Source: Prochlorococcus sp. AG-402-L09 (GTDB lineage Bacteria; Cyanobacteriota; Cyanobacteriia; PCC-6307; Cyanobiaceae). Taken from it: a DNA stretch of 63,533 nucleotides. Of the stretch, positions 1-17,295 are shown in pieces; positions within the stretch are counted from its first letter, which is position 1, and each line of letters begins with the position of its first letter. The notes under the pieces are model-generated. The model was not told the origin of the DNA, did not search any database, and was given only the letters and a program-made list of their open reading frames with translations. A program made the translations under genes and the position numbers. The stretch is from NCBI GenBank assembly GCA_003216715.1, contig QCIK01000004.1:1-63533 (forward strand), in the 5' to 3' direction.

Positions 1-343
1 AGCCATTGATCTTAAGCCTGATTTCGCAATGGCGCATTCCAACCTGGGAACAATATTAAGAGATCTTGGGAAATTACAAGAAGCAGAGTTATCAACGCGC
101 AAAGCCATTGAATTGAATCCTGACCTCGCAAAGGCACAATCCAATCTTGGAACAATATTGTTAGACCTTGGCAAGCTAAAAGAAGCAGAATTATTTGCTC
201 GCAAAGCAATTGATCTTCAACCTGATTTAGCTATTTCTCATTCAACCCTAGGGCTAATATTGAGAGATCTTGGTAATTTTAAAGAAGCAGAATTATCTAC
301 TCGCAAAGCAATTGATCTTCAGCCTGATTTAGCCCAAGCATAC
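1..343 (+). repeat. Tandem 102-bp repeats encoding TPR units
   Basis: About three and a half copies of a 102-bp unit, each containing a variant of GCAATTGATCTTCAACCTGA, are visible with a strict 102-bp period and continue off the left edge. Units at about 205-306 and 307-343 are nearly identical at the DNA level. This suggests recent unit duplication or gene conversion rather than old TPR divergence. Confidence 0.8.
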
Positions 344-1517: not shown

Positions 1518-1700
1518 TTAGTCATTCACTTTCGCTCTCAACTTGTAGAAGGTTTCTTCACAGCGACAGGTAACACCCTTAAAACCTTTTGGAAAAGATT
1601 GCATAAAAGTAGGAATTACCATCGTGACTGGATAACCACCTTTGATATGAAAGACAACCTCTTTCTTCTTTTCATCTACGAAATGCGGAGGAAAACTCAT
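1518..1700 (-). CDS. Small hypothetical protein, tandem paralogue copy 3
   Basis: A 60-residue protein of unknown function. The ATG at 1700 overlaps the stop of the upstream gene as TGATG, which implies translational coupling; a TTG three bases earlier is less likely. It contains EVVFHIKGGYPVTMVIPTFM, aligning without gaps to EVVFYLHNPYPDCLEIPAIM in the gene just upstream, so the two are paralogues. Both have a short lead, a conserved VVF...Y-P...IP core and a charged helix ending in FxKxR. I know no family for it. An overlapping plus-strand frame (1482-1760) is judged a shadow because the minus-strand frames are homologous to one another. Confidence 0.65.
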   Translation of the reverse strand: MSFPPHFVDEKKKEVVFHIKGGYPVTMVIPTFMQSFPKGFKGVTCRCEETFYKLRAKVND

Positions 1701-1897
1701 CAAACCTGTCCTCTATATTTCTTGAACTCCTCTATTGAACTTGTAACTATGCTCTTGTAATCATCAGGGAACCTTTGCTTCATGATTGCTGGAATTTCCA
1801 AGCAATCTGGATAAGGATTATGCAAATAAAAAACAACTTCCCTCTCTTTCTTTAAGACAATGTAATCAGATAGTCCCACTATATTTTTGTTGGTCAT
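1700..1897 (-). CDS. Small hypothetical protein, tandem paralogue copy 2
   Basis: A 65-residue protein of unknown function, with ATG at 1897 preceded by a good GGAGAGAAGGA ribosome-binding sequence. It carries EVVFYLHNPYPDCLEIPAIM and a C-terminal amphipathic SSIEEFKKYR stretch. It overlaps the downstream paralogue by one base (TGATG), and its ATG overlaps the stop of a remnant upstream copy (ATGA). No signal peptide or membrane segment is seen. The similarity to copy 3 is the main reason to believe it is expressed. Confidence 0.7.
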   Translation of the reverse strand: MTNKNIVGLSDYIVLKKEREVVFYLHNPYPDCLEIPAIMKQRFPDDYKSIVTSSIEEFKKYRGQV

Positions 1898-1986
1898 GCT
1901 GCGTCCTTCTCTCCAAAATCAGGAACCATCAAAACGTCTTCTATCTCTTCAGTAATAGTGAAGACGATATTTATTAGAATTTCACA
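1894..1986 (-). pseudogene. Truncated copy 1 of the small paralogue family
   Basis: Between the oxygenase-like gene and copy 2 the minus strand encodes NIVFTITEEIEDVLMVPDFG and ends in TGA overlapping the ATG of copy 2. The core lines up position by position with VVFYLHNPYPDCLEIP of copy 2 (I/V-V-F, D, L, I/V-P conserved). There is no ATG, GTG or TTG ahead of the core; only ATT at 1980 or a late TTG/ATG could start it. I read it as a 5'-truncated or non-canonically started third copy. Confidence 0.45.
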
Positions 1987-2704
1987 TCATTTTACCCAAC
2001 GGCACTGAATAAGTTTTGACAGTCGCTTTAGCTTTTACACGTTTCGCTGATCGTCCATCAGGAAGAATCATGAAAGGAGTCTGTGTCCCCATCGCTTCAT
2101 GAACACCCCGATTATATTCAGCCAAATCTGTTCCAAATTGAAAGCACACAAGAATACTAGAACTTGATGATGTTCCAGCTTCAGTTGAGTGATAGAAATC
2201 ACTACCAAAAAGTATTCCCTTACCTATCTCATATTTATATTTACATTCTTTCCCAGAAAGATCCTTATAGAGAAGATGTAAAGCATCTTCTTGTTGATAA
2301 AGTGGAGTTAGTAAAGTAAAAGCATTATTTTTAAGGCTACCTGACCAATCACGATGAAAATTTTTCTCACTGGAAGATCTTTTTAAAAAGAAACCAGAAT
2401 ATAGGCGAAGCTGATTTTTACATTCAATAATACCCCTTTCCCTGAATAATTTATCAAGATCTAAAGACTGAAATCCTTTCAAAAACAGATTATAAGTATC
2501 CATATTATTAGATGATATCCATTCCATATCTCCTCCCCAATCAGGTTTAGTAGATGTGAATTTATCAGATGGAAATATATCTTTATTAGTATTCCAAATA
2601 TAAGAATTCTTTATTATTTCTAATTCTTTAAATTTTTCTATATCAATCTCGATCTCAAGAACATTATCAGCATTAAATGTCTTATTTAGAAAAAATTTTC
2701 CCAT
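1982..2704 (-). CDS. Hypothetical protein, possible Fe(II)/2-oxoglutarate-type oxygenase fold
   Basis: A 240-residue protein I do not recognise by name. It contains HRDW at about residues 117-120 and FYHSTEAG with a second histidine near 172. This His-x-Asp...His spacing is reminiscent of the metal triad of the double-stranded beta-helix oxygenases. The usual 2-oxoglutarate-binding Arg soon after the distal His is not evident, so the assignment is only suggestive. The C-terminal tail is basic. It sits just upstream of the small paralogue array on the same strand, its stop touching the first, degenerate copy, so they probably share a transcript. Confidence 0.6.
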   Translation of the reverse strand: MGKFFLNKTFNADNVLEIEIDIEKFKELEIIKNSYIWNTNKDIFPSDKFTSTKPDWGGDMEWISSNNMDTYNLFLKGFQSLDLDKLFRERGIIECKNQLRLYSGFFLKRSSSEKNFHRDWSGSLKNNAFTLLTPLYQQEDALHLLYKDLSGKECKYKYEIGKGILFGSDFYHSTEAGTSSSSSILVCFQFGTDLAEYNRGVHEAMGTQTPFMILPDGRSAKRVKAKATVKTYSVPLGKMM

Positions 2705-3741: not shown

Positions 3742-3873
3742 AATATTTTGCTTCCCAGTCGAAAATAAGATACTTTTTCGTTACTACAATATTTCTCACA
3801 ACAAATTGCTGAGATAGATTGATATAGATGACTTCTTTCTAACAACACACAAAAATGCTAATTAGCAAGCAAG

Positions 3874-4713
3874 TTAAATAACTTTAGGATAAAGCGAACT
3901 ATCTTTAATTTCGGGTAAATCTACACTAATTTTCTGATCTTTACAGATTCCAAGCATATTAAAAGAATGTAATTTACCAAATAGATTATTTTCATTTTTA
4001 AAGAAGTTATTTTTATTATAAAGAGGAATAACATGCCAGTATATTTTATAGTCTAAAGACCATATTAACTCAATCAATTCTTTTGATTTCTCAATATAAT
4101 TCGAATCATTCTCTACATACAAAAAAGGTTTTGTTCTCTTTATTAAGTCAAAACCACCTTTAAGAACATCCACTTCCATTCCTTCAGCGTCTGTCTTTAA
4201 AAGTTTTAAACTTTGCAGATTATTAAATTTATTATCCAAAGTATCAACATTAGCTCGTAAGAAGTTTTTAGATTTTTCAGAAGATAGACTCATTGCCGCA
4301 AAATTACTTTTTTTGCTGTAATTAAGATTAGGATAATAAAACTCTTGATTCTGTTGATCTGACAAAGCAAAGTTAAAGCAAAAACAATTCGTTATTGAAT
4401 TAATAGACATATTTGCGCAAAGATTTTGAAAGATTACATTTTGTGGTTCAAAGGCAAATACAGCACCTTGATTAACAGTTTTTGCTAAAGCAAGAGTATG
4501 ACTTCCAATATTTGAACCAACTTCAATTACAACATCACTTGGACGCAAAATCTGTTTGCATATATCTATTTCTCCTTGCGACCATTCCCCATACTCTTTA
4601 ATACTTTTCCCTATATATTGATCATTCTTGTTATGAACCATCCAACCATCTCTCATTTTGACTAGATCGTTGAAACCATCAAGAGAGATAAATTCTTTAT
4701 TTTCAATATCCAA
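3874..4713 (-). CDS. FkbM-family SAM-dependent methyltransferase
   Basis: 279 residues with the SAM-binding motif DVVIEVGSNIGSHTLALAK around residues 84-102, an acidic FAFEPQN strand end, and the FkbM-type LLKTDAEGMEVDVLKG segment near residues 169-184. The family O-methylates sugars and other small molecules, often in surface-polysaccharide clusters. Here it lies in an accessory stretch with a sulfotransferase, which fits surface decoration, but the substrate is unknown. Confidence 0.82.
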   Translation of the reverse strand: MDIENKEFISLDGFNDLVKMRDGWMVHNKNDQYIGKSIKEYGEWSQGEIDICKQILRPSDVVIEVGSNIGSHTLALAKTVNQGAVFAFEPQNVIFQNLCANMSINSITNCFCFNFALSDQQNQEFYYPNLNYSKKSNFAAMSLSSEKSKNFLRANVDTLDNKFNNLQSLKLLKTDAEGMEVDVLKGGFDLIKRTKPFLYVENDSNYIEKSKELIELIWSLDYKIYWHVIPLYNKNNFFKNENNLFGKLHSFNMLGICKDQKISVDLPEIKDSSLYPKVI

Positions 4714-5073
4714 GAATCTTGTTAGGAAGTTTGCTAAATCATAGAAAATATATATCTTCTATGTCTTCTATAAAAAATATATCTTCTAATATTCGTGCAA
4801 ATCAACATTCAAAAACAACATAAATTCAAATAATTTTTCCTGGTTCAAGGAAAATCTACCAACAACAGATTCTTTGAAACTACATGCAGCGAATAAACGG
4901 ATCTCAAGGAATTACCAACTAATACTTAATACAACTCATACCACCCAACATTCCACCCAAAAAAACTGAACTGTATGCAACAGTATGGAAACTACTGAAT
5001 CAATCTCTTTCGTTATATCTAGTCAGTGAATGGCATTTGAGTCCTTATCAAGCACCCTGAACCAAATTAGAAA
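4714..5073. other. 360-bp gene-free interval before tRNA-Ser
   Basis: AT-rich, with a short reiteration of ATATCTTCT-like words at about 4746-4790. I see no credible gene. A short frame entering the tRNA is an artefact. It separates the accessory block from the core block. Confidence 0.6.
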
Positions 5074-5162
5074 CGGAGAGGGAGGGATTCGAACCCTCGA
5101 CAGAAGTTACCTCCTGTAACTCCTTAGCAGGGAGCCGCTTTCAACCACTCAGCCACCTCTCC
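5074..5162 (-). tRNA. tRNA-Ser (anticodon GCU)
   Basis: On the minus strand the sequence folds as a class II tRNA: acceptor GGAGAGG paired with CCTCTCC, discriminator G, anticodon loop CTGCTAA giving GCU, a long variable arm, and the T loop GGTTCGAATCC. The CCA is not encoded. Length is 89 nt. It lies at the change from accessory to core genes. Confidence 0.95.
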
Positions 5163-5222
5163 ATTACAAATACCTTATCAAGTCAACGATCGAAAAATTT
5201 AGATTGTTCTCCTCTACAAATT

Positions 5223-6422
5223 TTAAGTGACAATTCTAGGAAGTCGATTTCTAAAACTGCAGAGAACTTCCCATGGAATTGATCCAGACAAATCAGACCA
5301 ATGCTGTGGAGAAAGAAAAACTGCACCATCAGTTCCAAGAAGTGTTAAAACTTGACCTGTTTTAATATCTGGTTTATCAGTTATGTCAAAAACCATTTGG
5401 TCCATAGCAATTGCACCTACTTGAGGAACCAAAACTCCATCTATCGAAGCAGAAATTTTTCCAGAAAGTGTTTTGCTTACGCCATCTGCATAGCCAATAG
5501 CAACTACTGCAAGCTTACTTTTTCTTTGAGTTTTAAAAAAATGTCCATATCCCACTCCTATCCCTTTCTCAACATCTCTAACCAAAGTAACTCGAGCTTT
5601 AACTTTCAAGGCTGGGTTAAGGTTCAAGTCAGACTCGAAATCATTTGTGGGAAAGTAACCGTACAAGCTAAGTCCTACTCGAACCATGTCAAAATGAAGA
5701 CAACTATCAGATAGTGTTCCCGCTGAATTTGCTAGGTGTCTACATAAAAACTCTTTTCTTTTGCCTAAACCCTTTACAACCTTTTCAAATCTATTTAATT
5801 GAATCCGAGTAAAACTGAGTTTATTATTATTTTCTAGATCTTTATCCGCAATTGCTAAATGACTATATATACCTTTTAAAGATATATTTTCTAAGCAATC
5901 AATTCTAGAAATTAATTCTTCTACTTCATTGCAATCACAGCCAAGTCTTGTCATACCTGTGTCAACTTTTAAGTGAATAATAAATTTTTTTTGATTATTT
6001 TCAGCGATATTATTACAAATTATTGCCTCGCGAATTCCACTAATCGTAGGAATAAGATTCCAGCAAAAGGAGGAATAAAGTTCTTCTGCATTTATTAGAT
6101 TCCCAAGAATTAATATCTGACACGTCAAACCAGCATTTCTTAATTGAATCCCCTCTTCTAAAGTTGCTACTCCAAGGCTATCAGCGCCTCCAATCAAAGC
6201 AGCCTTCGCGACAGTCTCTGAGCCATGTCCATAGCCATCAGCTTTGACAACTGCCATTAATAAGCAATCTTTGCCAATAAAATTTTTCAAGACTCTTGAA
6301 TTATTTTCTATCGCTTTCGAATCCACTTCAACCCATGCGCGACTTCGAGGGTCAGGTCTCATTACATTTTGAGTTGTCCCATCAAAAGTGACAAGTTTTT
6401 GACTTCTATTGATCTTTGACAT
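5223..6422 (-). CDS. alr: Alanine racemase
   Basis: PLP enzyme interconverting L- and D-alanine for peptidoglycan. The PLP lysine motif VVKADGYGHG is near the N-terminus, and the GVGYGHFF segment carries the catalytic tyrosine of the C-terminal domain. I chose ATG at 6422 (MSKINRSQ), giving 399 residues, the usual length. The frame is open to an ATG at 6506, but that would add 28 residues unlike the family and overlap the divergent HNH gene. Confidence 0.93.
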   Translation of the reverse strand: MSKINRSQKLVTFDGTTQNVMRPDPRSRAWVEVDSKAIENNSRVLKNFIGKDCLLMAVVKADGYGHGSETVAKAALIGGADSLGVATLEEGIQLRNAGLTCQILILGNLINAEELYSSFCWNLIPTISGIREAIICNNIAENNQKKFIIHLKVDTGMTRLGCDCNEVEELISRIDCLENISLKGIYSHLAIADKDLENNNKLSFTRIQLNRFEKVVKGLGKRKEFLCRHLANSAGTLSDSCLHFDMVRVGLSLYGYFPTNDFESDLNLNPALKVKARVTLVRDVEKGIGVGYGHFFKTQRKSKLAVVAIGYADGVSKTLSGKISASIDGVLVPQVGAIAMDQMVFDITDKPDIKTGQVLTLLGTDGAVFLSPQHWSDLSGSIPWEVLCSFRNRLPRIVT

Positions 6423-6504
6423 ACTCAGCATGCAATCAATGTAATAAGGGAAACTGCAACAAGGCCGTAATACCACTAGCATGCCGCTTAAATAGCTTGC
6501 TTGC

Positions 6505-7011
6505 ATGGGTCAAGTTCTTGTTTTGAATGCGTCCTATGAGCCATTGAACATCACTTCATGGCGACGCGCGACTGTTTTAATGCTTAAAGGTAAGGCTGAA
6601 AGTCTTGAAGAAGATGCTGCTCACAATATTAGACAAGATGTTAAAGCTCCTACCGTAATAAGATTAAGACAATTTATTAGAGTTCCATATCGTGATATTC
6701 CTCTTTCTAGAAAAAATATATTTCAAAGAGATGATAACTGCTGTCAATATTGTGGTCAGAAAAATAAAAAACTTTCAATTGATCATGTATTACCCCGTAG
6801 TAGAGGTGGAATGGACAATTGGGAGAATGTTATTACTGCATGTCTGAGATGCAACGTAATGAAAGGTAATCGAACTCCTGAAGAGGCAAAGATGCCATTA
6901 AAAACAAAACCTTATAAACCTTTAAATAATATGAGTTTTGAAACTACAAAACAAATTCACTCTGGTCGCCATAAAGAATGGAGTAAATATGTAATTGGAT
7001 GGGCAGCTTAG
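6505..7011 (+). CDS. HNH endonuclease family protein
   Basis: 168 residues. A CxxC pair (CQYCG), the HNH core LSIDHVLPRSRGGMDNWEN and a second CxxC (CLRCN) form a zinc-supported beta-beta-alpha nuclease fold. The N-terminal VLVLNASYEPLNITSWRRA is typical of a family widespread in cyanobacteria, without a firm biological role. It is not next to any intron, phage or restriction gene, so a housekeeping DNA or RNA processing role is more likely than mobility; that is inference. Confidence 0.85.
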   Translation: MGQVLVLNASYEPLNITSWRRATVLMLKGKAESLEEDAAHNIRQDVKAPTVIRLRQFIRVPYRDIPLSRKNIFQRDDNCCQYCGQKNKKLSIDHVLPRSRGGMDNWENVITACLRCNVMKGNRTPEEAKMPLKTKPYKPLNNMSFETTKQIHSGRHKEWSKYVIGWAA

Positions 7012-7017
7012 TTTCTT

Positions 7018-8115
7018 TTACTCTTCAGATTGATTACTGAGCTCTTCCATTTGCCTTTTTTGTTCTTCTGCAACACAGGCTCCAATAACATCTTCTAATT
7101 GACCTGCTAGAACTTGTTCAAGGGGAAAATTAATTCCCAATCGATGATCAGTGGTTCGATTATCTTTGTAATTATAGGTCCTTATTTTTTCACTTCTATC
7201 ACCTGTTCCAACCTGAGACAATCGAGCAGATCTCTCTTTTGCATTAGCCTCAGCTATTTCAAGTTCTAATAATTTAGCTCTTAAAATCTCCATAGCTCTT
7301 TCTCTATTTTGTAATTGAGAACGTTCCTGTGTGCAAAAAACTCTTATTCCTGAGGGTTTATGAAATAAATCAATAGCTGTTTCTACTTTATTTACATTTT
7401 GACCACCAGCCCCACCAGACCTTGCTGTACTAATTTCTAAGTCAGTAGATTCTATTTTTACCTCTACTGGATCAGCTTCTGGCATAACAGCAACAGTTGC
7501 CGTGGAAGTATGAACACGCCCTTGTGATTCAGTTGAAGGAACTCTTTGAACTCTATGAACTCCTGCTTCAAATTTTAATTGACTAAAAACAGACTCGCCT
7601 TTTACTGAGATAATCATTTCTCGAAAACCGCCCATATCAGCTTCTGTTGAACTAATAGGTTTTACATTCCAACCTAATTTTTGTCCATATCTCTCATACA
7701 TTCTTGCTAGATCACCAGCCCATAAACAAGCTTCATTTCCTCCTGCTCCAGCTCTTATTTCAAGCATCACACTTCTTTCATCTCTAGGGTCTTTGGGTAA
7801 AAGAGCCAAAGTCAATTTTTGAATTAATTCATTTTTTGAAAGTTCAAGATTTTGGAGCTCTTCTCTAGCCAAAAGTTCCATTTCTTTGTCATCTCTGCTC
7901 TCTTTTACTAAACCTTTAGCTTCTAAGCATTCTCTTTCTATTATTTGGAGTTTCATATAATCATTAACCAAAGGTTCTAAACGAGACCTCTCTCTAGCAA
8001 TTTTCTCTAATTGCTTAGGATCTGATGCAACATCAGGATCTGCAAGTTGCAACTCTAAATTTTGAAAACTACTTTTAGCTGTTTCTAGACGTTTTATAAG
8101 GGTTGAAGAATCCAT
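7018..8115 (-). CDS. prfA: Peptide chain release factor 1
   Basis: 365 residues. The peptidyl-tRNA hydrolysis motif GGQ lies in [15 protein letters not shown], and [20 protein letters not shown] is the class I release-factor signature of the RF1 side. RF1 reads UAA and UAG. It is the last gene of the long ribosomal block, close behind rpmE, as in other marine picocyanobacteria. Confidence 0.95.
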
Positions 8116-8146
8116 TCTTTGTATGCCCTACTTACATCAACGACTA

Positions 8147-8407
8147 TCAACTTTCCTTTTTTTCTTTTGAAGATTTATCTTTTACTTCATTCGAGTCTGA
8201 TGAAGCCATACCGTATTTACGCATAAATCTATCTACCCTACCTTCCGTATCTAAAATCTTCTGGGTTCCTGTGAAGAAAGGATGATTTCCACTCCATACA
8301 TCAACCTGTATTTCCGGTTGTGTAGAGCCTGTTGTCATCACAACTTCACCATTACAAATAACTTTTGCCTCTGGATACCAAGTTGGATGTATATCTGATT
8401 TAGGCAT
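8147..8407 (-). CDS. rpmE: 50S ribosomal protein L31
   Basis: 86 residues, with IHPTWYPEAKVICNGEVV and VWSGNHPFFTGTQKILD. The CxxC zinc pair of Cys-plus L31 is missing (VWSGN replaces the second pair), so this is the zinc-free form known from cyanobacteria and plastids. The Lys/Glu-rich tail of about 18 residues is unconserved in type. Confidence 0.95.
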   Translation of the reverse strand: MPKSDIHPTWYPEAKVICNGEVVMTTGSTQPEIQVDVWSGNHPFFTGTQKILDTEGRVDRFMRKYGMASSDSNEVKDKSSKEKKES

Positions 8408-8442
8408 GATAAAAAAAGCAGTATAGAAAGTAAAAAGTGAAA

Positions 8443-8850
8443 TTATCTCTTTGAGAATTGTGGAGCTTTACGAGCTTTTTTGAGACCATATTTACGTCTC
8501 TCTTTAGCTCTGGGATCACGACTAAGATGACCCTCTACTTTAAGAGGCTTACGGTTATCAAGAGATAGGTCACATAAAGCTCTAGCAGCTCCCTGCTTTA
8601 TTGCATCAGACTGACCAGTCAATCCACCGCCATGAACGTTAACTAGAACATCATAAGATTCACTCAAGCCTAAGGTTTTCAGAGGAGCTTTAACAGCAGA
8701 TATATATGCAGGATTGAAATTCAAATAATGATCACCAGGCCGACCATTGATAACTATTTCACCTTTTCCAGGGGTTAACCTTACTCTCGCAATTGATGTC
8801 TTACGTCTACCAGTTCCCCAGTAAACTACTTGGTTTGTGGAACTAGTCAT
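8443..8850 (-). CDS. rpsI: 30S ribosomal protein S9
   Basis: 135 residues ending in the typical [10 protein letters not shown] tail, which reaches toward the decoding centre; [16 protein letters not shown] is the conserved start. Its ATG overlaps the rplM stop (ATGA), the usual rplM-rpsI coupling. Confidence 0.97.
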
Positions 8851-9299
8851 TTCGAAACAGAATCAGAATTTAGAGTGAGAATTTTTGGTTCTTGGGCTGA
8901 ATGAGGGTGTTCAGATCCTTTGTAGACTTTAAGTTTAGTAAATAATTGCCTTCCTAACCTAGTGTGAGGCAACATTCCTTTGATTGCCTTTTCAACAATC
9001 CTCTCTGGAATTCTAGATTGAAGAGCCTTAAAGGTTTCAACTTTCATTCCTCCGGGACGTCCAGAGTGCCTGCGATAAAGTTTTTGATCAGATTTCTTGC
9101 CAGTTACTTTGATTTTTTCTGCATTTACAACAATAACAAAATCACCTGTATCTAAGTGAGGGGTAAAATTTGGTTTTGTCTTACCCCTAAGGACACTCGC
9201 AACCTCAGTTGCTAATCGACCTAAAGTTTGATTCTCTGCGTCAACCAGAAACCATTGACGATCTATGGAATCCAGAGACGGAACGGATGTCTTGTTCAT
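8847..9299 (-). CDS. rplM: 50S ribosomal protein L13
   Basis: 150 residues, with [43 protein letters not shown] and the [11 protein letters not shown] motif. It is translationally coupled to rpsI. A 186-bp gap separates it from truA upstream, so it may have its own promoter there. Confidence 0.97.
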
Positions 9300-9327
9300 T
9301 TTTCCTGAACACCTTTAACACTGAATT

Positions 9328-9350
9328 AGCATTATCGTTTTAATAATGCT
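9328..9350. promoter_or_regulatory. Small inverted repeat in the rplM leader
   Basis: AGCATTA at 9328-9334 pairs with TAATGCT at 9344-9350 around a 9-nt loop, 29-51 bases upstream of the rplM start. There is no T-run. It could be a leader hairpin; seven AT-rich pairs are weak evidence. Confidence 0.3.
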
Positions 9351-9485
9351 GTTTAAGGAAGTTATCAAGTCAAATAATTGATCTGATTCTTCGGAAAGTT
9401 GATTCTACACTTTAATGGCTGAAAACTGACCTTTTTGTTGGCATAAAATTTAAATTGCTGATTTAAGAAATTTCCATTTTTTTAT

Positions 9486-10331
9486 TTAGTAATAATTTAT
9501 ATTTTGTGAATCTTTTGAAGAATCAAATATTGGGAGAGAAAAATTAGGAAAAGTGTCAAAACTTTTCTCTTTTGAAAAGATTTTGTCCTCATAACCAACT
9601 CTAATTAAGCAAAGGCCATGTGGCGGAGCAGCCTCCTTAACTTCAGAACGCAAACCGTTTCTCCACCTGTATTTAAATTTTTCAAGAGAAAGTCGTTTTT
9701 CCCCTACAGCAACCAATTGTCCAATTAAGAGTCTTACCATTCCATATAAAAAGCCACTAGCTTGTATTTCAACTGTGACTATGTCCCCATCACGGCAAAT
9801 AGAAACATCTTGCACTGTGGTAAATGAATTAGCCCTATTACTACCTGCTTTTTGAAAAGCTGAAAAATCATGTAAACCTAATAAATCATTTAAAGCCTGA
9901 TTCATTAAATCGACATCTAATCTAAATCTATATTTAAACCAACTGATGTTTTGAAGAAAGAGATTTGGAAAGGATCCATTGAAAATAGTATATCTATATC
10001 TTCTATACTTTGCCGAATAGCAAGCGTGCCAATTCTCCGACACCCTTACTGCTTCAAGAACTTTAATTGATGATGGAAGCCTTCCATTTAGTGCTGACGG
10101 CCATTTATGAATAGGGATTGGACCAGCACAATCAAAATGAGCAACTTGTCCAGAAGCATGAACACCCGCATCAGTTCTGCCTGCTGCTATTAATTTGACT
10201 GGTCTAATAGGATCAAGCTCTGAAACTTTCTCTTCTAAGGTTCCTTGAACAGTTACTGAATCTTTTTGATTTTGCCAACCTCTAAAACCTGAGCCATTAT
10301 ATTGAATAACTAGAGCAATTCTATTAGTCAA
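9486..10331 (-). CDS. truA: tRNA pseudouridine38-40 synthase
   Basis: 281 residues. The catalytic Asp lies in [18 protein letters not shown], and [17 protein letters not shown] is the conserved C-terminal motif. TruA makes pseudouridine in the anticodon arm of many tRNAs. The truA-rplM-rpsI order behind rplQ is widespread in cyanobacteria. The last 30 residues or so are unconserved in character. Confidence 0.95.
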
Positions 10332-10403
10332 ATTAAAACTAAAACGTCAGATCAGTAAACAAATTAGAAAATATTTAATTACTATTTATTTGGAATTAAT
10401 GAC

Positions 10404-10754
10404 CTATACAAGCTCAACAATAGCCATTTCAGAATTATCTCCACGCCTTGGTGTAGTTCTCACAATTCTAGTGTAACCCCCTTGGCGATCACCATAACGC
10501 TCTTGAGCCTTTTCAAAAAGTGCGTGCACCAATTGCTTATCGTATACATAACCAATAGCTCTTCTTCTTGACGAAAGGCTGCCATCCTTAGCCAAGGTAA
10601 TCATTCTTTCAGTTTCATCTCTCAAAGCTTTTGCTCTTGCTTTGGTTGTAGTGACTCTACCTTCACGAATTAGTTGAGTAGTTAATCCTCTTAAAAGTGC
10701 CTTCCTTTGATCAGCAGGGCGACTCAATTGTGGAATTCGACGTTGATGACGCAT
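10404..10754 (-). CDS. rplQ: 50S ribosomal protein L17
   Basis: 116 residues, full length: [20 protein letters not shown] at the start, and [20 protein letters not shown] near the end. It follows rpoA by 39 bases, the standard order. Confidence 0.97.
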
Positions 10755-10793
10755 TTGATTAGCTTTGAAACGTAGTAGGAATAAAACTGAAAT

Positions 10794-11732
10794 TCATGCA
10801 GAAGTTCTGCTTTGAGGAATAGAAATTCCAATTCTCTCTAGAGCTTCAATAACTTCATCTGCAGATTTAGAACCGAAGTTCTTAATTTCCAACAAATCCT
10901 CATAACTGAAACCCATCAAATCAGAAACAGAGTTCACTTGGGCACGTTTTAGGCAATTGTAAGCTCGTACAGACAAGTTTAGCTCTTCAAGGGGTATTTG
11001 GGCCTCCGCAGCAGGTTCTGGCTCCTCGGGTATCTCTTCTACCATTGAGACAGTTGCAAGAGGCTGAAAAAGTTCGATTAATTGATTTGCAGCTTCCGCC
11101 AATGCATCATCAGGGGAGGTAGATCCATCAGTAACAAGCTCCATTTTCAATCTTTCTCTAGTAGAACCTCCCTCAGCCACGGCAGTTTCATCAATAGTAA
11201 AATTAACTCTATTTATAGGCATAAAGACAGCATCAATTTGAAGCAAATCAATTGCGCTTGTCTCTTCATTTCTTCTATCAACAGGTCGATATCCAACACC
11301 TCTTTCTACATGTAATTCCAATTCAAGATTGTGACCCTCATGGACTGTTGCTATTGGACGATCACCATCAACAACTTCAACTTGAGATGAAAACTGAATA
11401 TCCCTCGCTTTAACTTCAGCAGGACCTGTGACAACAATCCTTCCTATTTCGAGTTCTTGACTGCGACTATCAACTGAAATTTGTTTGCAATTAAGAAGAA
11501 TGTCTAAAACATCCTCTCTTACGCCAGGGATGGTTGCATACTCATGATTTACACCTGCAATCCTGACGGCAGTAACTGCGCTGCCTTCGAGACCACCCAT
11601 TAATACTCTGCGTAGAGAATTACCCAAAGTTGTTGCTTGACCTCTTTCAAGAGGTCCAATTAGGAAGACGCCTGTTTGGGAACGATCATTAGAAACTTGA
11701 TGGTCGATCCTGTCAATCTGGTATTGCAACAC
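10794..11732 (-). CDS. rpoA: RNA polymerase subunit alpha
   Basis: 312 residues. The N-terminal assembly domain has [20 protein letters not shown]. An acidic linker ([13 protein letters not shown]) leads to the C-terminal promoter-contact domain, which includes [19 protein letters not shown] and [19 protein letters not shown]. It sits in the usual place between rpsK and rplQ. Confidence 0.97.
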
Positions 11733-11783
11733 GGTCTAATGCGATGTGGAAAAAAAAGAAAAGTTCACTTAAGTGAATAGAAT

Positions 11784-12176
11784 TTAAACGCGTCTGCGTT
11801 TAGGTCTCCTACAACCGTTATGTGGGAGAGGAGTGACATCTCTGATCAAAGTAATTTCAAGACCGGCTACTTGCAATGCACGTATTGCGGTTTCACGACC
11901 TGAGCCTGGGCCTCTTACAAGCACTTCTATTTGTCGCATTCCTTGCTCTAAAGCCCTACGGGCTGCAACTTCAGCAGCGGTTTGAGCAGCGAAAGGAGTA
12001 CCTTTTCGAGCGCCTTTAAATCCGCTTGCTCCTGCTGATGACCAGGAGATGACTTCACCAGAAGTGTCAGTAATTGAGACAATGGTGTTATTGAAGGTAC
12101 TTTGAATGTGCACAACTCCATTTGGAACATTGCGCTTTGACTTCTTAGAACCGGATTTCTTTGAGGTTGTAGCCAT
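11784..12176 (-). CDS. rpsK: 30S ribosomal protein S11
   Basis: 130 residues, with [44 protein letters not shown] and the C-terminal [13 protein letters not shown]. It forms part of the mRNA exit platform. Standard alpha-operon position. Confidence 0.97.
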
Positions 12177-12239
12177 TTGGCTGTGCCTTATTTAAAAAAG
12201 ATTTAGTAAATTAACAAGTGGTGACAGGAGACTAAGAAA

Positions 12240-12605
12240 TTATTTCTTTCTTCCTGCAACAGTTTTCCTAGCTCCTCTCCGAGTACGAGCATTAGTCCTA
12301 GTTCTCTGTCCACGAACAGGAAGACTCATTCTATGCCTTCGTCCACGAATACATCCTATATCTTGAAGTCGTTTCAGCGCCATTCCTTCTTGGCGCCTCA
12401 AGTCTCCTTCAAGAGTGAATTCTTCAGTAACAGCTCTAAGCTTCTGAATATCACTATCATTTAAATCCTTTACACGAATATCAGGATTAACTCCTGATTT
12501 TTCGAGGATTTTCTGGGCTCTGGTTAAGCCGATGCCATAGATGTATGTAAGAGCAACTTCTACCCGCTTTTCGCGAGGTATGTCGATGCCTGAAATACGT
12601 GCCAC
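12240..12605 (-). CDS. rpsM: 30S ribosomal protein S13
   Basis: 121 residues. [20 protein letters not shown] at the start and [17 protein letters not shown] near the end are diagnostic. S13 bridges the head of the small subunit to the large subunit and contacts P-site tRNA. Confidence 0.97.
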
Positions 12606-14829: not shown

Positions 14830-15282
14830 TTAGGTGTATAGCTCACATGTTCCTCCAGCATCTTCAATTTTCTTTTTGGCCGACGTTGTAAACGCTGAAG
14901 CTTGAACAGTCAATTTCACTTCTAATGTACCGTTACCAAGTATCTTGAGAGGATTTTTTGGCTTTGTCAAAATACCTTCCTTCACCAACAAGTCAAGATC
15001 AACAACAGTTCCGGCTTTCAATTTATTCAAACTGGAAACGTTGAGAACAGTAAAATTTTTCTGATTAACTATTGGGAAATGTTTTAATTTTGGAACTCGC
15101 CTGTATAGAGGCATTTGACCACCCTCAAAGCCTGGTCGAGTAGGTCTCCCAGATCGGGATTTTTGCCCCCTCATGCCAAACCCGCAACTAGCTCCTTGGC
15201 CAGCAGCAATACCTCGACCTTTACGCATTTTCTTACGTCTAGATCCTTTGTTTGATTGAAGGGATTCCAATTTAATAGTCAT
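14830..15282 (-). CDS. rplO: 50S ribosomal protein L15
   Basis: 150 residues from ATG at 15282 ([20 protein letters not shown]). The frame extends to 15354 inside rpsE, but the extra 24 residues do not resemble L15. [20 protein letters not shown] and [18 protein letters not shown] are diagnostic. Confidence 0.95.
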
Positions 15283-15286
15283 GATT

Positions 15287-15919
15287 TTAAGAATAAATCT
15301 GCTCAAGTGAAATACCACGCTCTTTTGCTGTGGCTTTATGAGTTCGCAACTCACTTAATGCAACCATTGCAGCACGAGCGTTATTAAGAGGAGTTTTACT
15401 ACCTAATCTCTTAGCAAGTACATTTTTTATTCCAGCCAACTCTAAAACAGTACGAATTGAACCTCCTGCAATTACACCTGTACCAGGCGCTGCAGGACGT
15501 ATTAACACACTTGCTGCTCCATCTCTGCCATTAGAGAGAGTTGGAATAGAGTTGGACCGCGTTAAAGGGACACGAACTAAATGTTTTTTTCCATCAGCGA
15601 CACCTTTACGAACAGCTCCAATAACATCTCCTGCTTTTCCTACCCCAACACCAACTTGCCCTTTTTCATTTCCTACTACAACTATGGCCCTAAAACTCAT
15701 TTTCTTTCCCCCTTTAACTGTTTTGGAGACCCTTCTAATTTGGACAACCCGTTCTTGCCATTCAGAGTCCCTGTCTTGACCTCTTCTATCTCTCCTCCCT
15801 CCGCGTTTTTCACCTCTATTGCGTCGGTTTTGGTTTTCCTGCCTGCCATCTGCAGCGGGAGGTGCATCTGATGATCCAGAAGTTCTTTTATTTTGGGACT
15901 GGTTTTTAGAGTCTGTCAT
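15287..15919 (-). CDS. rpsE: 30S ribosomal protein S5
   Basis: 210 residues. The S5 core begins at about residue 53 ([20 protein letters not shown]), with [17 protein letters not shown] and [20 protein letters not shown]. The first 50 residues are a charged, low-complexity Arg/Gly/Asp/Gln extension, as in other picocyanobacteria, which makes the protein longer than enterobacterial S5. Confidence 0.96.
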
Positions 15920-16893: not shown

Positions 16894-17295
16894 TCAACAT
16901 ACGTAGCAGAGGACTTCTCCTCCAACTCCTTGCTTGCGAGCATCACGATCACTCATGACTCCCTTAGAGGTAGAGATTATTGCAACTCCAAGGCCTCCTA
17001 AAACTTTTGGTAATCCTCGAGTATTTTTATAAATCCTCAATCCTGGTTTACTCACTCGCTGCATTGAACGAATAATGGGTGAGCGATGCTTACCAGTATA
17101 TTTCAATCCAAGAATGAGCTGCTTTCGAAAGCCCTCTCCTTCTTCATTGATTTCTGCGATAAAACCCTCTCGCTGAAGAACCTTAGCGATACTAAGAGAC
17201 ATTCTTGAAGCAGGGACTTTAGTTTTTTCATGACGCTTTTCACTTGCATTTCTTATGCGAGTGAGCATGTCTGAAATTGGATCGTGGTTGGCCAT
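16894..17295 (-). CDS. rpsH: 30S ribosomal protein S8
   Basis: 133 residues, with [32 protein letters not shown] and the C-terminal [21 protein letters not shown]8 is an early assembly protein contacting helix 21 of 16S rRNA. rplE is directly upstream; no rpsN gene lies between them. Confidence 0.97.

Follow-up and report, generated by a model that had tools for sequence, protein, structure and literature searches.

The DNA analysed here, hereafter the window, is a stretch of 63,533 nucleotides from a Prochlorococcus contig, and near its left end it carries a short run of minus-strand reading frames joined by overlapping stops and starts. Copy 3 (1518-1700, minus strand) opens with an ATG at 1700 and encodes 60 amino acids, and copy 2 (1700-1897, minus strand) opens with an ATG and encodes 65. 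The stop codon of copy 2 overlaps the start codon of copy 3 in TGATG (1698-1702, minus strand), and the stop codon of a further frame, copy 1, overlaps the start of copy 2 in ATGA (1894-1897, minus strand); both junctions had been named in the original prediction and are present in the sequence. That prediction regarded all three frames as paralogues. Its claim held for copies 2 and 3, which were confirmed as a local pair when a search of their own genome with copy 2 recovered copy 3 (E of 8.9e-6) and when an iterated profile of a 57-position core, built without copy 1, matched copies 2 and 3 at E values of 1.4e-28 and 9.9e-31. Identification of copy 3 as a gene is supported by homologues, a low dN/dS, and an AF2 model, and that of copy 2 by matches in the genus and an AF2 model. 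Both are real genes and diverged paralogues; their family, whose members have approximately 60 residues, is unnamed and is referred to here as FAM, with copy 2 in branch A (FAM-A) and copy 3 in branch B (FAM-B). The genome search with copy 2 also gave a third, weak match on contig C6 (E of 0.3) containing internal stops.

Copy 1 proved to be a truncated, unrelated gene. As predicted, its frame (1894-1986) contains no ATG, GTG, or TTG ahead of the supposed core. Its 3' part (1894-1958, minus strand), which ends in EEIEDVLMVPDFGEKDAA before the stop codon, aligned with a 64-residue gene of loci L068, L102, and L103 that we call MDEC. In relatives, MDEC lies between a recombinase and FAM-A and finishes in residues like EEIEDVLMVPNFGEKETA before its stop, followed by ATGA into FAM-A; the window retains the MDEC tail alone. 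Above approximately position 1967, the window instead matches the flank of an oxygenase-like gene in locus L180, where L180 then diverges. Since homologies differ on the two sides of 1958-1967 (no strand), the copy 1 frame is, as judged from these alignments, a chimera at a recombination breakpoint. The residues IVF (1960-1968), which make up the part of copy 1 resembling the FAM core, fall in the unmatched breakpoint stretch. When identities to the copy 2 core and the copy 3 core were summed, 6 of 888 window open reading frames of 25 to 45 amino acids reached the value of copy 1, copy 1 itself being among the 6, and its likeness to the FAM core is within chance. An earlier, small profile (A1) had matched copy 1 at an E of 2.8e-8, but that profile included copy 1 among its own rows, which makes the match circular; copy 1 is absent from the match list of the iterated profile built without it. 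The MDEC alignment and the chance-level core identity rule out copy 1 as a third FAM paralogue, and the copy described as degrading is the cut-off tail of a different gene.

Upstream of this remnant lies a 240-amino-acid gene (1982-2704, minus strand) in which we noticed by eye an HxD..H motif that we take to be that of a 2OG-Fe(II) oxygenase; a Pfam search up to an E of 1 gave zero matches. The gene occurs in 3 of 41 genomes of the genus, the window's genome counted, and in the other two (loci L180 and L181) it stands beside a transporter-like gene, with the FAM string absent from the fetched stretches. Between positions 1300 and 2900, promoter-like sites were below the level in shuffled sequence (4 versus 7.8), and the single terminator-like site was within the oxygenase-like gene. 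Farther upstream, a tRNA-Ser(GCT) gene (5073-5163, minus strand) coincides with an edge of synteny. The window and eight compared genomes have alr and this tRNA in common, and in 7 of the 8 the long match starts at 5049-5073, at the tRNA 3' end, and heads away from the island (in L259, it starts at 4939). By this synteny, tRNA-Ser(GCT) bounds the island that holds the window's remnant. Positions 1-333 of the window consist of 102-bp tandem repeats (3.3 copies, TPR-like units of 34 residues) that open a gene which by eye looks like a TPR and sulfotransferase gene. The TPR repeats at bases 1-340 recur inside the tRNA-Ser islands of 7 of the 8 compared genomes. L258 additionally shares 3845-4712 of the window, and both L255 and L258 contain a copy of 9 to 19 nt of the tRNA end with approximately 130 to 140 nt of window flank, 3.5 to 3.7 kb from their tRNA.

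FAM has many relatives. Copy 2 matched at an E of ≤0.001 in 27 of 41 genomes of the genus, and when 400 genomes of the window's taxonomic family were searched with the small profile, which still included the copy 1 row, FAM was found in 82, representing 27 of 59 genera. The iterated profile gave 153 matches at an E of <1e-4 in 115 of 118 loci (117 fetched stretches and the window), a proportion that is high by construction, as nearly all stretches had been fetched for a FAM match. A pattern search of a species-genome collection yielded 28 loci, every one titled Prochlorococcus. We found no relative of FAM in the cultured phages searched, none was confirmed among 109 and 29 pattern-matching stretches in IMG/VR viral contigs, and copy 3 as the sole query gave no match in plasmids. 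The original prediction gave no family name, and searches with 29 FAM members (3 of 32 nonredundant members, from L072, L076, and L097, were omitted from alignment A2) returned no credible match in Pfam (best E of 0.087), NCBIfam (0.057), or PHROG (0.015), and PDB sequences contained no credible relative. Copies 2 and 3 had no match in PADLOC, and FAM members had none to phrog_685. Three loci carry FAM in unusual arrangements. L145 encodes an identical FAM protein twice, 5.1 kb apart on one contig (2135-2347 and 7256-7468), and L149 encodes the same FAM protein twice, 1.7 kb apart with slightly different frame ends (15202-15474 and 16906-17169); these doublings are either recent tandem duplications or assembly artefacts. 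L163, from a genome of another genus (g18), contains two FAM domains in a single open frame of 141 codons (5996-6418, minus strand).

The FAM sequence is under purifying selection, with a median dN/dS of 0.132 among 124 sequences (1573 pairs with dS of 0.2 to 1.2, which are not independent of one another). Medians across seven modules, FAM included, ranged from 0.075 to 0.26. The description of the system as fast evolving thus fails for the FAM sequence, and it is in gene content that the strings vary instead. The low dN/dS on the sense strand also bears on the reading that the minus-strand frames are spurious or that plus-strand frames at 1482-1760 and 1786-1977 are the true genes, which we regard as highly improbable. 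Although 5 of 7 tandem loci (the window counted) keep the frame antisense to copy 3 uninterrupted, it is broken in the other 2, the compared part of the second plus-strand frame is broken in 4 of the 7, and the sense family recurs in the 82 genomes noted above. Low sense dN/dS and broken frames in relatives weigh heavily against the antisense frames as real genes, and the original prediction of minus-strand genes was not refuted, homologues being abundant on the minus strand and the opposing frames interrupted in some relatives.

AF2 models of copy 3 (pLDDT of 84.7, pTM of 0.68) and of copy 2 (pLDDT of 73.5, pTM of 0.56, with residues 1-8 at a pLDDT of <50) both have the order strand-strand-helix-strand-helix. 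Judged by element order in these two models, copies 2 and 3 are predicted to share a fold. Searches of fold libraries with the FAM models, of which the PDB search used copy 3 only, found no significant structural neighbour, and resemblances to KH-like, deiminase, and prodomain folds were dropped as not significant. In a viral fold library, both models had the same top two matches, Synechococcus phage proteins of 46 and 52 amino acids, at nonsignificant E values of 0.14 to 0.23; these model-based matches are a lead and no more.

The FAM genes of relatives stand in strings with other tiny genes. We profiled ten recurrent neighbour modules under names coined in this analysis: REC, MDEC, DWL, KVEV, PVLI, IDAY, MDWD, LATI, NYSD, and DFFA. 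String members have approximately 30 to 110 residues, and their starts overlap or abut the preceding stop. Examples are REC-FAM-DWL-NYSD-IDAY-MDWD-PVLI-LATI, REC-FAM-KVEV-DFFA-PVLI-LATI, REC-MDEC-FAM-FAM-PVLI, and FAM-DWL-DWL-KVEV, and another string remnant in the window's genome, on contig C20 (L175), reads FAM fragment-DWL-KVEV. The 128 FAM strings represent 51 compositions, with 27 of them FAM alone, some at contig ends. FAM is followed by nine kinds of successor and preceded by six kinds of predecessor. Among adjacent module pairs, 254 of 350 overlap, the leading gaps being -4 (163 pairs) and -1 (63 pairs). MDEC is joined to FAM at -4 in 9 of 10 pairs, the window's pair included, and FAM to FAM at -1 in 9 of 18 pairs, broken-gene fragments among them; pair and string counts treat such fragments as modules. 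An overlapping minus-strand duplicate in L072 was dropped before counting, and since orthologous or near-identical loci are numerous, the counts are not independent. An ATG at -4 or -1 that opens a frame of at least 40 codons followed 55 of 125 FAM stops (copies near a locus end left out), compared with 46 of 663 stops of open reading frames of at least 150 amino acids and 76 of 2949 stops of those of 40 to 110 amino acids in the same, related and hence nonindependent, loci. The stop-start overlap of FAM exceeds chance.

Junctions are retained when neighbours change. For several genes, unrelated upstream genes finish on identical bases ahead of the start; for example, agtaATGCCAGTC precedes PVLI after DFFA, MDWD, or FAM, although not after DWL. 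Alternative modules (KVEV or IDAY, and DFFA or MDWD) occupy equal positions with their junctions kept. As module order is mostly constant, with exceptions such as KVEV ahead of FAM 13 times, the strings are better explained by modules being deleted or replaced at fixed positions than by free shuffling. The original prediction of an accessory system is supported, and relatives keep FAM in strings of variable composition within variable islands. Most modules scanned belong to no named family; the scans took in every module but DFFA, with NYSD in Pfam and PHROGs only, LATI outside PADLOC, and NCBIfam for FAM alone. In L158, an HsdR-like gene, part of what by eye looks like a type I restriction-modification operon, shares its last four bases with the start of the string FAM-KVEV-DFFA-PVLI(broken)-LATI (6277-9381 and 9384-12288).

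The REC module is a small serine recombinase of the Hin/resolvase type. Two representatives have a PF00239 catalytic domain and a C-terminal helix-turn-helix, the latter matching below Pfam cutoffs; they matched Pfam Resolvase at E values of 3.2e-23 and 9.1e-29 and received the PHROG label "DNA invertase." In the 1.5 kb upstream, 44 of 61 FAM-A copies have a recombinase (full length in 37), as do 18 of 61 FAM-B copies (full length in 15), with 4 of 127 FAM copies left out for too little upstream sequence, along with the L072 duplicate. At 50% identity, the 41 full-length recombinases form groups of 25, 11, 4, and 1. From REC, 39 of 49 scored steps lead to FAM, 35 of these 39 with a gap of -4. 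Among recombinase matches in FAM-positive genomes of the 201 searched, FAM followed within 800 nt downstream in 24 of 40 and did not in 16. In 30 fetched recombinase loci, FAM was downstream in 7, all in genomes of ≤1.8 Mb, and the remaining 23, which came from larger genomes and some small ones, had none of the modules by these profiles. The window's own genome (92.5% complete) contained no resolvase by PF00239 at an E of ≤0.001, and the window's string remnant is without a recombinase upstream.

Two modules connect the strings to cyanophages. One KVEV representative matched phrog_685 (1.9e-18) and 322 phage records at an E of ≤0.001, all named Synechococcus, Prochlorococcus, cyano-, or marine phages; other KVEV variants matched 23 records or none at that limit (best E of 3e-3). 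DWL corresponded to phrog_869 (9.1e-8) and matched 3 phage records at an E of ≤0.001 over 76% of its length. In phage S-SM2 (Kyanoviridae), KVEV, annotated "T4-LIKE GC: 650," is one of a row of tiny genes, some of which share four bases with a neighbour. MDEC and PVLI had no match in the phages searched, and ten proteins scanned against PADLOC gave no credible match, that of IDAY at 0.0019 being taken as chance. T4-like cyanophages have hot spots of small genes, according to the portion of PMC3037559 available to us.

Other strings also occur near tRNA genes. The G005 string is in an island at tRNA-Thr/Tyr, where all 12 of the loci L242 to L253 begin their long match at L068 8706-8773, the tRNA 3' end being at 8773. 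Across all strings, 31 of 115 loci carry 34 tRNAs of only six anticodon kinds (13 Ser-CGA, 7 Cys-GCA, 5 Thr-GGT, 5 Asn-GTT, 3 Tyr-GTA, and 1 Phe-GAA), and the other 84 have no tRNA within the fetched stretch. This number is not above the approximately 30 expected by rough arithmetic from approximately 40 tRNAs per genome. The tRNA kinds near strings are skewed, and the skew is inflated by orthologous loci.

We propose, with a probability of about 0.72, that the locus is what is left of the tail of a string of tiny genes, modular and polycistronic in appearance, which our searches so far place in Prochlorococcus only. This estimate refers to the anatomy of the string. Judged from sequence, the stop-start overlaps would couple translation, so that the tiny proteins would be made in fixed proportion. 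Modules would be reassorted by phage-like mosaic recombination, with selection keeping the coupling. FAM would serve the element as an accessory protein, putatively binding a partner protein or nucleic acid, and would be carried as cargo out of a gene pool shared in part with cyanophages; the most likely function is thus that of accessory cargo of a mobile, phage-linked element. The window's string lacks the recombinase and most of MDEC, with a breakpoint near 1958-1967. Several observations count against this account. The window's genome is without a resolvase, 17 of 61 FAM-A and 43 of 61 FAM-B copies lack an upstream recombinase, and 16 of the 40 recombinases in FAM-positive genomes lack FAM. 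FAM was not found in the phages and viral contigs searched, phage records are far fewer for the other KVEV variants, 84 of 115 loci are without a tRNA in the fetched stretch, and 27 of 128 strings are FAM alone. The mostly constant module order could also be explained by deletions from one ancestral operon.

That last point leads to a different reading, which we consider unlikely, in which an ordinary small accessory operon has decayed and only island location ties the tiny genes to the recombinase. Deletion from one ancestor could account for many strings, and islands gather unrelated genes, but neither the overlap of -4 in 35 of 39 REC-FAM pairs nor the exchange of alternative modules at equal positions with junctions retained fits readily with such an origin. 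The same REC-FAM overlap, together with the 39 of 49 steps from REC to FAM and the persistence of this link across recombinase groups of <50% identity, would be expected if FAM were a translationally coupled working partner of the serine recombinase, such as a directionality or accessory factor, with the other tiny genes as passengers. We think this improbable, given that FAM is without a recombinase in 60 of 122 scorable copies, is tandemly duplicated, follows KVEV 13 times and an HsdR-looking gene once (L158), and is missing from the recombinases' neighbourhood in the 16 of 40 cases above. A role for the tiny proteins in phage-host conflict, either as phage-style takeover proteins domesticated by the host or as antiphage cargo, is less likely than not. 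KVEV and DWL are cyanophage families, the S-SM2 KVEV gene lies in a run of tiny genes of which some overlap, one string (L158) is borne by the restriction-modification-looking operon assigned by eye, and the top viral fold matches of both FAM models are Synechococcus phage proteins (E of 0.14 to 0.23). Those fold matches are not significant, however, the ten-protein PADLOC scan gave no credible match, and FAM, MDEC, and PVLI were not found in the phages searched. The conflict role, the recombinase-partner role, and the leftover-string account that we favour are not mutually exclusive.

If the leftover-string account holds, a recurring, selected, recombinase-linked microprotein string, partly common to cyanophages, would be a concrete, testable unit of island dark matter, and string anatomy offers a way of recognising decayed copies, as in the window. 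Few photosynthetic organisms are as abundant as Prochlorococcus, and much of its unexplained gene content sits in its islands. We also entertain, as a long shot, a serine-recombinase cassette system in which tiny promoterless genes are the cassettes and stop-start overlaps their boundaries, with cassettes captured, lost, and swapped behind a resident recombinase in tRNA-bounded islands. In that event, Prochlorococcus would gain a combinatorial, phage-fed bank of coupled microproteins, with FAM as the signature protein. Integron cassettes are defined by attC sites and the tyrosine recombinase IntI. The strings resemble them in lining up varying sets of small genes behind a recombinase, but the string recombinase is a serine enzyme and string order is mostly fixed. 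Reading the string junctions by eye, we found only start-codon context in common and noticed no attC-like site.

Tycheposons were reportedly described by Hackl et al. in 2023. The available part of PMC10872708 summarises them as tRNA-bounded cargo islands of Prochlorococcus, and synteny in the window likewise stops at a tRNA 3' end. Tycheposons are, however, tied to tyrosine recombinases, and place is what links the strings to them. Also comparable are the variable picocyanobacterial islands at tRNA-Cys or tRNA-Phe in the accessible text of the preprint PMC10187409, whose novel tyrosine integrase is often found close to "a small serine recombinase." Common to these and the string loci are a setting in variable Prochlorococcus islands, a small serine recombinase, restriction systems nearby, and tRNAs, Cys and Phe among them, whereas tiny-gene strings and FAM go unmentioned in that text; the terms small protein, hypothetical, overlapping, tRNA-Ser, and operon led to no mention of such strings in its main text. 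No description of tiny-gene strings was found in a literature search that mostly excluded subscription papers. As for phrog_685, KVEV belongs to the same strings as FAM, and two Synechococcus phage proteins similar in size to FAM show a weak likeness to its models, which does not imply their membership in phrog_685; no FAM member matches phrog_685, and FAM is predicted to have a C-terminal helix.

Many strings have a small RNA gene as their upstream neighbour. A 66-nt element considered as an attachment site or promoter turned out to be the Cyano-1 RNA read from the opposite strand. Of 113 strings, 29 have Cyano-1 in the 600 nt upstream, always divergent, compared with approximately 1.4 expected from its density in the loci, and Rfam confirmed it (RF01701) in 10 of 10 loci scanned; RF01701 is absent from the window. 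According to the part of PMC8400943 available to us, Cyano-1 is the Yfr2 motif. The divergent placement beside 29 of 113 strings is to be set against the nature of yfr2 genes as a known multicopy family at unconserved loci, as stated in the accessible part of PMC6778093. A Yfr2-type gene upstream of a string is seen, for example, at L068 4794-4858 (minus strand), and an island may hold several, as L243 holds two. Such repeated copies could act as sites of homologous exchange. In the tRNA island of L243, a glutamine-II riboswitch (247-309, minus strand) and a Cyano-1 RNA lie approximately 170 nt apart.
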